Below are positions 1-4,935 of a DNA stretch of 5,200 nt, one piece after another (the first letter of the stretch is position 1; every line of letters starts with the position of its first letter). This DNA is from Chloroflexota bacterium (GTDB lineage: Bacteria > Chloroflexota > Chloroflexia > JAMDCE01). The notes below the pieces were generated by a model that saw only the letters and a program-made list of their open reading frames with translations, made no database searches and had not been told where the DNA came from. Location of the stretch: positions 19,572-24,771 of the forward strand of contig JAMDCE010000568.1 in assembly GCA_023489135.1 (NCBI GenBank), written 5' to 3'. The translations under genes were made by a program, and so were the position numbers.

Positions 1-130
1 TACGTCCACGACTTGGCATCGCTGCTGAAGTAGGTGGCATAGTTCTTTCCTTTGCGCCGGGAAATGCGTAGGTAAGTATCTCCATCCAGCGGCGTGTTAA
101 CTTGCTTCTGCCCGCCCCCGCTGCTGGTCT
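1..130 (-). repeat. Inverted copy of the lipoprotein gene segment 2047-2180
   Basis: Read on the minus strand, bases 130-1 match bases 2047-2180 of the plus strand with one substitution (base 124) and one gap: the 2047-2180 copy carries four extra bases (GAAT, 2131-2134). Identity breaks off after the shared TGGTCT at 125-130. Translated on the minus strand, this copy keeps the intact reading frame through the part of the beta-sandwich domain reading RISRRKGKNYATYFSSDAKS. The match starts at base 1, so the repeat may extend beyond the window. Beyond base 130 the sequence belongs to the unrelated membrane-protein gene, so this is a gene fragment rather than a second whole gene within the window. 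Whether it is biological or a chimeric sequence end cannot be decided here. Confidence 0.95.
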
Positions 131-1134: not shown

Positions 1135-2213
1135 TGCTGAAATCTATCAGATGCCTTGTCGTTGTGTTGGTGCCCTTTGCTCTCGGACTGCTCCTCTCGG
1201 CCTGCTCCAGTGGAGGCCCGGAGGCAGCGGCGCAAAAGGGCTTTGAAGAATGGACGAAGAACATCTCAGTTGCTTACCGCAACGTGAGCTACAGGACTGT
1301 TTCCAGTAAGGAGGCATTTGCCACCGTTGAGGTAACCGGCGAGTTCCAGAATGCTCCCAATACCCCCTGGGTTGAGCAACAGGCGGCGGTCCAAGTGGTC
1401 AAACAGGGAGATCAGTGGAGGCCCCCGACGCAGTTCGTGTTTGCGCCCAGCCCCCGCGCCGTCCAGACGGCGCAGGCCATCAGTAACGCTACCGCGACGG
1501 TAGAGTCCGCGAGGGCATCGGCGACTCAGGCTGCCTTCGAACAAGTTCGACAAGCTACGGCAACGGCAGCGATACAAGCTGCTCAAGCCACCGCAACGGC
1601 GGTCACTCAAGCGGCTCAGGCCACGGCAACGGCGGCCACTCAAGCGGCTCAGGCTGCGGCTGCAGCCGCTACTCGGGCTACCGCCACTGCCGTCGCGTCC
1701 GACCGGCAGAAGGCCGCGGGTGCCAACGGCGACTTCAACGGGAGCTCGCTTCCGCCGGAATGGAACGTGCTTCGCCCCGATCCCAACCGCTGGCGCTTGG
1801 ACCAAGGTGCCTTGGTGGTCATGCCAGCCCCTGAGATCGAGTGGAATCGCTGGTACAACACGTTCATCCGTCCCCTTCCTACGCTGAACTCCGACCTTGA
1901 TATAACCATCAAGCTGCAGGTTACCGAGAAAAACGTAGATCGGCAGTTTTTCTGGATGCGCTTGCAGGCAGGCGAGGAAACGCAAAATGGTCCGTGGATG
2001 GATGTTGCGGTCTCTCTCGCACGTTCCGGTTCGTCAGTGTACAGCAAGACCAACAGCGGGGGCGGGCAGAAGCAAGTTAACACGCCGCTGGATGGAGATA
2101 CTTACCTACGCATTTCCCGGCGCAAAGGAAGAATAGAACTATGCCACCTACTTCAGCAGCGATGCCAAGTCGTGGACGTACGTGAACGAATGGAACAACG
2201 CTCCTGCGTTTGA
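1131..2213 (+). CDS. Lipoprotein with Ala/Thr/Gln stalk and beta-sandwich domain, N-terminal part of a frameshifted gene
   Basis: This is a predicted lipid-anchored surface protein of unknown substrate. ATG 1131 is chosen because GGAGG (1119-1123) lies 7 nt upstream and a good signal peptide follows: basic MMLKSIR, a hydrophobic core, then lipobox LSAC with Cys25 as the predicted lipidated residue. Residues about 33-105 look like a small alpha+beta domain (EEWTKNISVAYRNVSY... QGDQWRPP), family not recognised. Residues about 115-190 are a low-complexity stalk of 11-residue repeats. Residues about 200-333 start a DUF1349/concanavalin-like beta-sandwich (DFNGSSLPPEWNVLRPDPNR, 201-220; WRLDQGALVVMP after it), a fold often binding carbohydrate. 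The frame is lost after Gly333 at the 4-nt insertion 2131-2134, and the last 27 residues of this 360-residue ORF are out of frame. Deleting GAAT, as in the inverted copy at 1-130, joins it to the downstream ORF as a 514-residue protein spanning 1131-2679. The break is either a recent mutation or a sequence error. Confidence 0.8.
   Translation: MMLKSIRCLVVVLVPFALGLLLSACSSGGPEAAAQKGFEEWTKNISVAYRNVSYRTVSSKEAFATVEVTGEFQNAPNTPWVEQQAAVQVVKQGDQWRPPTQFVFAPSPRAVQTAQAISNATATVESARASATQAAFEQVRQATATAAIQAAQATATAVTQAAQATATAATQAAQAAAAAATRATATAVASDRQKAAGANGDFNGSSLPPEWNVLRPDPNRWRLDQGALVVMPAPEIEWNRWYNTFIRPLPTLNSDLDITIKLQVTEKNVDRQFFWMRLQAGEETQNGPWMDVAVSLARSGSSVYSKTNSGGGQKQVNTPLDGDTYLRISRRKGRIELCHLLQQRCQVVDVRERMEQRSCV
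1551..1682 (+). repeat. 33-bp tandem repeat encoding an 11-residue stalk unit
   Basis: Four consecutive 33-bp units (1551-1583, 1584-1616, 1617-1649, 1650-1682) encode QATATAAIQAA, QATATAVTQAA, QATATAATQAA and the diverged QAAAAAATRAT. Units two and three are almost identical in DNA, suggesting recent duplication; the fourth is degenerate. Less regular Ala/Thr/Gln sequence flanks the array on both sides. An 11-residue period fits a right-handed hendecad coiled coil or helical stalk lifting the downstream domains off the membrane. Unit number may vary between strains. Confidence 0.85.
2047..2180 (+). repeat. Right-hand copy of the inverted repeat
   Basis: This segment lies inside the beta-sandwich coding region of the lipoprotein and is the partner of the inverted copy at 1-130. 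It differs by one base and by the 4-nt insertion at 2131-2134. The two copies are in opposite orientation and bracket 131-2046, which holds the membrane-protein gene and the first two thirds of the lipoprotein gene. Confidence 0.95.
2131..2134 (+). other. 4-nt insertion (GAAT) breaking the lipoprotein frame
   Basis: The inverted copy at 1-130 reads GGAAAGAACTATGCC, whereas this locus reads GGAAGAATAGAACTATGCC. Removing GAAT restores the codons for RKGKNYATYFSSDAKSWTYV and fuses the two flanking ORFs. The surrounding GAA-GAA-TAGAA sequence is slippage-prone. The insertion also creates a TAG (2134-2136) in the downstream frame. Confidence 0.9.
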
Positions 2214-2745: not shown

Positions 2746-4491
2746 TCAGCTCAGCTCCAGCGCCCGCGACTCGACCTGCTGCACCGCCCTCTCCACGAAG
2801 GTGACCACGCCCAGCGGTCCCAGGTTCTCGCCCGACCGCAGCCGGACGGAAACGGTGTCGGAGGCCGCTTCCTGGTCCCCCGCCACCAGCATATAGGGTA
2901 TCTTCTGTAGCTGGGCCTCGCGTCGATTGTAACCCATCTTCTCCCGCCGAGTATCCACCTGCACGCGCAGCCCGGCCTGCTCCAGGCGCTGCTTCACCGC
3001 CTCGACGTAGTCGTTATGTCGATCCGCGATGGGGATGAGCACGGCCTGAACCGGCGCCAGCCAGAGCGGAAACGCCCCCGCGTAGTGCTCGATGAGCCCG
3101 CCGATGAAGCGCTCCAACGCCCCCAGCACCGCCCGGTGCACCATCACCGGCCGGTGGCGCAGTCCATCTTCGCCCACGTACTCCATGTCGAAGCGCTCCG
3201 GGAGGTTGAAATCCACCTGAATGGTTGGCCCCTGCCAGGACCGGCCCAGGGCATCCTTCACCTTTATGTCGATGGCCGGCCCGTAGAACTTGGCCTCCCC
3301 CTCCATCCGCTGGTATGGCACACCTTTGGCCTCCATGGCATTCGTCAGGGCATCCTCAGCCATCTGCCACACCTCGTCGGCGCCGGCGTACTTCTCCTTT
3401 TCCTTGGGATCGCGCACGCTGAGCTCGACGTCGTAGTGCTCGTATCCGAAGGTCCGCATCATGAACTGAGCCAGGTCGAGCACTCCCACGATCTCCGACT
3501 CCAGTTGCTCGGGCCGGCAGAAGATGTGAGCGTCATCCTGGGTAAACCCGCGCACCCGCAGGATTCCGTGCAGCACCCCTGATCTTTCGTAGCGGTACAC
3601 CGTGCCCAGCTCGGCCCAGCGCAAGGGCAGGTCGCGGTAGCTGCGCAAATGGCTCTTGTATATCAGGATGTGGAACGGGCAGTTCATGGGCTTCAGAAGG
3701 TATTCCTGCCCCTCGACGTCCATAGGTGAAAACATGTTTTCGCGGTACCAGTCCCAGTGCCCGCTGGTCTTCCACAGGTCCAGCTTACCCACGTGAGGGC
3801 TGTAGACGATCTCGTAGTCGCGAGCCAGGTGCTCCGCGCGCCAGAAATCCTCGATGACCTTGCGTACGGCCCCTCCCTTGGGGTGCCAGAGAACCAGCCC
3901 CGGCCCCAGCTCCTCGCTGATGCTGAACAGATCCAGCTCCCGACCCAGCTTCCTGTGGTCACGCCTGGCCGCCTCTTCCAGCTTGCGCAAGTGCTCGTCG
4001 AGCTCCTCCTGTGTGGGAAACGCCGTGCCATAGATGCGCTGGAGCATCGGCCGCTTCTCGTCGCCTCGCCAGTAGGCCCCGGCCACGCTCAACAGCTTGA
4101 ACGGACCGATCCGGCCGGTGCTCTCGACGTGAGGCCCCCGACAGAGATCGACGAAGTCGCCCTGTCGATACACCGAGACCGTGTCGTCGGGAATCTCCTC
4201 GATCAGCTCCACCTTGAAGGGCTGCCCCAGGATCTCGAAAAGTCTCTTTGCCTCATCTTTGGACACCACCTCACGCACGAAGGGCAGATCGGCGGCCACG
4301 ATCTGGCCCATGCGCTTTTCGATTTCCTTCAAATCGTCGGGAGTCAGCGTTCTGGGAAGCTCGAAATCGTAATAGAACCCCTCGGTGATGGCCGGGCCGA
4401 TGCCCAGCTTCGCCTGGCCCAACAGCGATTGGACGGCCTGAGCCATCACGTGTGCCGCTGAGTGTCTCATCGCATCCAGTCTGTCTTCCAC
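2746..4491 (-). CDS. thrS: Threonyl-tRNA synthetase lacking the TGS domain
   Basis: This cytoplasmic enzyme charges tRNA-Thr with threonine using ATP. GTG 4491 is the start, with AGGAGG 8 nt upstream. The product is 581 residues; E. coli ThrRS has 642, and the missing part is the N-terminal TGS domain. Residues 1-190 form the editing domain that clears Ser-tRNA-Thr, with HSAAH (10-14) and CRGPH (117-121) supplying the expected His10, His14, Cys117 and His121. The class II catalytic core follows: motif 1 region about 216-234, motif 2 around YRYERSGVLHGILRVRGFTQ (299-318), motif 3 around VMVHRAVLGALERFIGG (449-465). The zinc ligands that select threonine are Cys271 (MNCPFH), His322 (DDAHIF) and His452 (MVHRA). 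The anticodon-binding domain is about 476-575 and contains DTRREKMGYNRREAQ. All key residues are present, so activity is expected. A TAG lies in frame 14 codons upstream, so no TGS domain is hidden there. Expression is controlled by the upstream T-box leader. Confidence 0.98.
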   Translation of the reverse strand: MEDRLDAMRHSAAHVMAQAVQSLLGQAKLGIGPAITEGFYYDFELPRTLTPDDLKEIEKRMGQIVAADLPFVREVVSKDEAKRLFEILGQPFKVELIEEIPDDTVSVYRQGDFVDLCRGPHVESTGRIGPFKLLSVAGAYWRGDEKRPMLQRIYGTAFPTQEELDEHLRKLEEAARRDHRKLGRELDLFSISEELGPGLVLWHPKGGAVRKVIEDFWRAEHLARDYEIVYSPHVGKLDLWKTSGHWDWYRENMFSPMDVEGQEYLLKPMNCPFHILIYKSHLRSYRDLPLRWAELGTVYRYERSGVLHGILRVRGFTQDDAHIFCRPEQLESEIVGVLDLAQFMMRTFGYEHYDVELSVRDPKEKEKYAGADEVWQMAEDALTNAMEAKGVPYQRMEGEAKFYGPAIDIKVKDALGRSWQGPTIQVDFNLPERFDMEYVGEDGLRHRPVMVHRAVLGALERFIGGLIEHYAGAFPLWLAPVQAVLIPIADRHNDYVEAVKQRLEQAGLRVQVDTRREKMGYNRREAQLQKIPYMLVAGDQEAASDTVSVRLRSGENLGPLGVVTFVERAVQQVESRALELS

Positions 4492-4647: not shown

Positions 4648-4677
4648 AAAAAACCCCTCGCCCATTGGGACGAGAGG
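4648..4677 (-). terminator. T-box intrinsic terminator of thrS
   Basis: On the minus strand CCTCTCG(T)CCC pairs with GGGCGAGGGG around an AAT loop and is followed by TTTTTT. The stem has 10 pairs with a one-base bulge and one G-U. It would end transcription before thrS when tRNA-Thr is charged. Confidence 0.92.
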
Positions 4678-4906
4678 AGTCCTCGCGGTTCCACCCAAAT
4701 TCAGGACCCTTCGTGGCCGGTAGAGCCACGATAGCCTGCCGCTTCATTGGGCCGATAACGGGTGCCTCCGTGAGGTTGTACTCGACGATCTTTCCAACCC
4801 AGGCTCACAGGTGGTTTTCTTCGGTCCGTAGCTAAGGAACTCACAGCCCAGGGTCCCTTCTCTCTGAAGCTAGATTACCGAATACTCGTCCTGCTCAACG
4901 CCGGTT
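4648..4906 (-). promoter_or_regulatory. T-box riboswitch, threonine-specific, controlling thrS
   Basis: This leader RNA senses uncharged tRNA-Thr and permits transcription of thrS. Stem I (4906-4796) has an AACC-GGC/GCC-GGTT base, a kink-turn-like TGAG/TGAG pair, a CAGG/CCTG helix, AGTA (4886-4883) in the specifier loop, an upper helix TTCGGT/ACCGAA, an AGAGAG box (4865-4860) and a GNTG-type box GCTGTGAG (4847-4840). The specifier is ACC at 4815-4813 (a second ACC follows directly), a Thr codon preceded by GAAA and followed by A. A stem II region (about 4790-4741) holds a second AGTA. Stem III is TCGTGGC/GCCACGA (4731-4711). The T-box core GGGTGGAACCGCG lies around 4695-4684, inside an antiterminator closed by GTCCT/AGGAC (4707-4703 with 4683-4679). 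The competing terminator follows. The bulge TGGA would pair with the tRNA 3' end. Confidence 0.95.
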
Positions 4907-4935
4907 CTTCTTGTCAAACATGTGAAGCCTGCCGG

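Follow-up and report, generated by a model that had tools for sequence, protein, structure and literature searches.

Does the inverted copy at the left end of this stretch of Chloroflexota DNA belong to the genome, or was it made in the tube or during assembly? The window, by which we mean the whole stretch of 5,200 nucleotides that was analysed, opens with a piece of a lipoprotein gene in reverse orientation and continues from base 131 into the reading frame of a membrane protein. When the window was compared with itself, bases 1-130 proved to match 2047-2180 on the opposite strand, apart from one mismatch and a single gap of 4 nt; the initial annotation had described the repeat correctly, and its coordinates and its mismatch and gap counts were recovered unchanged. 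The arms lie 1916 nt apart and share three exact inverted runs, of 77 nt (47-123 with 2054-2130), 46 nt (1-46 with 2135-2180) and 6 nt (125-130 with 2047-2052). The single mismatch pairs base 124 with base 2053, the four additional bases of the main copy, 2131-2134, are missing from the arm, and an alignment with only one mismatch is obtained with just one placement of the gap. In 100 order-1 resamples of the window, no exact inverted match exceeded 18 nt, and the longest one per resample averaged 12.9 nt; matches of 77 and 46 nt are far beyond chance. According to these runs and the alignment of relatives, the arm (1-130, minus strand) is an in-frame segment from the interior of the lipoprotein gene, cut by the window edge, while its source copy (2047-2180, plus strand) lies within that gene. 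The possibility that the 46-nt exact end is an assembler k-mer was rejected by reasoning, since the 77-nt exact run would also have collapsed.

The repeat ends at a word common to both sequences, TGGTCT, at 125-130, where the initial annotation had also placed the end of the match; it pairs with 2047-2052 and is bordered by base 124, the sole mismatch. Among pairs of junction points drawn at random, a flush shared word of at least 6 nt occurred at a rate of 0.000265 (200,000 draws), from which it follows that annealing probably made the join, in the cell or in the tube. Since the sole mismatch is the first base past the 6-nt word, the copy proper carries 0 substitutions in 123 bases plus the 4-nt gap, and, as these 123 other aligned bases are identical, the arm shows no sign of age. 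Base 124 itself either is native to the membrane-protein gene or arose as an error where the strand switched. A 24-mer of the repeat had 0 matches in viral contigs, and a search among plasmids for DNA similar to positions 1-2700 of the window gave no match.

Beyond what the initial annotation had described, the main copy contains a 4-base frame break, whereas the arm is in frame. The N-terminal part of the lipoprotein and its Ala/Thr-rich linker occupy 1131-2129 on the plus strand, where two relatives, P0005 and P0006, show about 40% identity and the frame holds until the 4-nt insertion; the frame of the relatives is broken at 2131-2134, the four bases of the source copy that the arm does not have, and the C-terminal part follows on the same strand at 2137-2679 in a different frame. 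Both relatives match the main copy in frame 3 until 2129 and in frame 1 from 2137, whereas against the arm they run in one unbroken frame across 35 residues, with identities of 54% for P0005 and 49% for P0006. P0002, the protein predicted for this gene in the database, is read from the broken frame of the main copy. Because the arm keeps the frame of the relatives and the main copy does not, the arm would have been copied from an intact version of the lipoprotein gene, and because the two differ in frame state, they derive from different molecules or one of them bears an error. Either strain variation or an error in the consensus would account for the four extra bases of the main copy.

We consider it likely that the inverted copy at 1-130 is a chimera formed in vitro or during assembly, not a real feature of the genome. 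A strand being copied leftward through the membrane-protein gene would have ended in AGACCA, and this end could have annealed to the complementary TGGTCT at 2047-2052 of the minus strand, whether that lay 1.9 kb back on the same strand or on a copy that had been displaced. Extension of the annealed end along the lipoprotein gene would have produced the inverted tail, with a molecule carrying an intact lipoprotein frame as its template, and an assembler may then have ended the sequence on its left side with this chimeric read or molecule, masking the true sequence before 131. Such an event would have taken place in vitro or during assembly, and base 1 would lie at or near a contig end. In favor of a chimera, the arms are inverted and 1.9 kb apart with a 6-nt word flush with the junction, and the arm starts mid-gene and in frame, as a random copy of an intact template would. 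Against it, the 4-nt difference is unexpected from one amplified cell and requires a second variant or an error, and real rearrangements also show microhomology and inverted orientation. No partial gene was found at the left edge among 3 candidates, in a search over about 56-178 aa; this range misses longer proteins, and the result says nothing if gene calling skipped the edge. In the protein database the contig of the window has a length of 24,771 nt. The initial annotation had set out this anatomy and held two readings open, a real inverted duplication and a strand-switch chimera or misassembly; the anatomy and the pair of readings were right, and the evidence now leans toward the chimera, because the mismatch lies at the switch point, no other substitution is present, and the frame is intact in the arm but broken in the main copy.

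Chimeras of this form have been described. Passages of the study by Lasken and Stockwell (2007; PMC1855051) report that 406 of 475 phi29 amplification chimeras were inverted, that the joined segments lay less than 10 kb apart in 337 of the 406 inverted ones, that 76.8% of junctions had complementary words between 2 and 21 nt long, and that complementary bases were present at the junction in 93.5% of inverted joins of less than 10 kb. In the figures of those passages, an inverted join of segments about 2 kb apart with a short priming word is the commonest form. The join in the window resembles these phi29 MDA chimeras in anatomy, being inverted, spanning less than 10 kb (1916 nt) and having a short complementary word at the junction (6 nt, within the range of 2-21 nt); it differs from those described in the passages in that its arm and the assembled source differ by 4 nt. 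Passages of PMC10908179 also report inverted chimeric reads, from sonicated or enzymatically fragmented human libraries, with a mechanism offered as a hypothesis. As in the window, a short inverted repeat there leads a strand over into its own inverted complement, and mismatches are left at the site of pairing; unlike the window, the reads come from human libraries, and the passages state no distance such as 2 kb. Judged by these passages, the two papers make an in-vitro origin ordinary, yet neither proves it here.

A template switch at the 6-nt word inside the cell would give identical anatomy. The inverted piece would then be a recent and real partial duplication of the lipoprotein gene, confined to this lineage or to a subpopulation, the original of which was later frameshifted by 4 nt, and the older intact frame of the arm fits copying before that frameshift. 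We nevertheless find this account unlikely, as a new mid-gene fragment that happens to extend to the edge of the window and has 0 substitutions over 123 bases is, in our judgement, a less common event. The junction was also seen in no relative found, a point that weighs little against a real duplication since the searches for relatives with the membrane-protein gene (0 of 400 genomes) or with a close lipoprotein likewise came back empty.

The membrane-protein frame on the plus strand is open from the junction (131-1019, within an open reading frame at 102-1019), as judged from the translation and its hydrophobic segments. The corresponding database protein, P0004, has 272 aa and begins at GTG 201, five bases before which a GGAG was read by eye; GTG 201 could be the true start, in which case the membrane-protein gene need not be truncated, a point that counts against the chimera. 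The codon score of 131-200 is 0.026 in the membrane-protein frame versus 0.054 in a minus-strand frame, while that of 132-230, which includes bases past GTG 201, was reached by a fraction of 0.0085 of 2,000 shuffles. A scan of 1-2800 for promoters and terminators gave 0 and 1 sites, respectively, no more than in shuffles. Neither Pfam nor NCBIfam gave a match for the protein, no relative but the protein itself stood among the matches listed (7,998 candidates scored), and a phmmer search with P0001 against the open reading frames of 85 loci returned none at E <= 1. The proteins of the window had one match in these loci, which was in L081 and involved the N-terminal part of the lipoprotein (E 3e-13), and ten further, partly overlapping loci gave nothing at E 0.1 for the membrane-protein gene or the lipoprotein.

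The right half of the window holds a threonyl-tRNA synthetase gene, identified with Pfam at 2746-4491 on the minus strand, and upstream of it a T-box leader at 4663-4907 on the same strand (Rfam RF00230, 103.8 bits). A tRNA-Val (gac) adjoins the leader, and the right end of the window consists of the first codons of what is apparently scpA. The synthetase was matched at E <= 1e-180 in 299 of 400 Chloroflexota genomes, the best match being 79% identical; across all phyla, none of the matches listed was more than 65% identical. The contig that bears the 79% match stops about 635 nt beyond that gene, and in two of the next-best genomes a tRNA-Val also adjoins the synthetase gene. Judged by this one gene and its neighbors, the organism probably belongs to Chloroflexota.

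Few relatives of the lipoprotein itself turned up. Queried with P0002, the search gave 3 relatives besides the protein itself among the matches listed (7,996 candidates scored), and no match in groups of 6, 2, 13 and 29 genomes, the last three of which are nested groups around one genome; its relative P0005 had 5 weak matches in 400 genomes, and tblastn of P0005 against phages gave no match. Three tandem 33-nt repeats at 1551-1674 encode an Ala/Thr/Gln-rich linker in the lipoprotein. The N-terminal part and the Ala/Thr-rich linker are common to P0005, P0006 and P0007, and the C-terminal part of P0007 differs, for which reason the lipoprotein family looks modular.

This difference in the C-terminal part of P0007 makes swapping of C-terminal parts conceivable, and with it a further explanation, in which the arms are the recombination sites of an invertible cassette and the minus strand to the left of base 1 encodes another C-terminal half for the lipoprotein. 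Flipping of 131-2046 (1.9 kb) would join the N-terminal half to the alternative C-terminus, the visible, frame-broken orientation being the off state; since the frame is intact in the left arm and broken in the right, inversion would alter how the gene is read. Shufflons and hsdS inversion are invertible gene cassettes with silent partial copies, and the window resembles them in that its long, nearly identical inverted arms place a mid-gene partial copy, which has no gene start, opposite a full gene. It differs from them in that neither a recombinase nor an alternative C-terminal part is visible within the window itself: Pfam found no recombinase among four of its open reading frames, two of which, together with two relatives, were also searched with NCBIfam. 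A short junction word with an adjacent mismatch also suits copying better than exchange between old repeats, and we hold an invertible cassette to be highly improbable. The little probability left beside the chimera, the duplication and the cassette falls to something else.

What the locus means for the organism depends on which of these accounts is true. Were the inversion reading correct, it would describe a phase-variable surface lipoprotein in Chloroflexota, of which we know no other in this phylum. If 1-130 is a chimera, as we think likely, the finding is a warning only, that neither this record's left end nor the start of its membrane protein is to be trusted.
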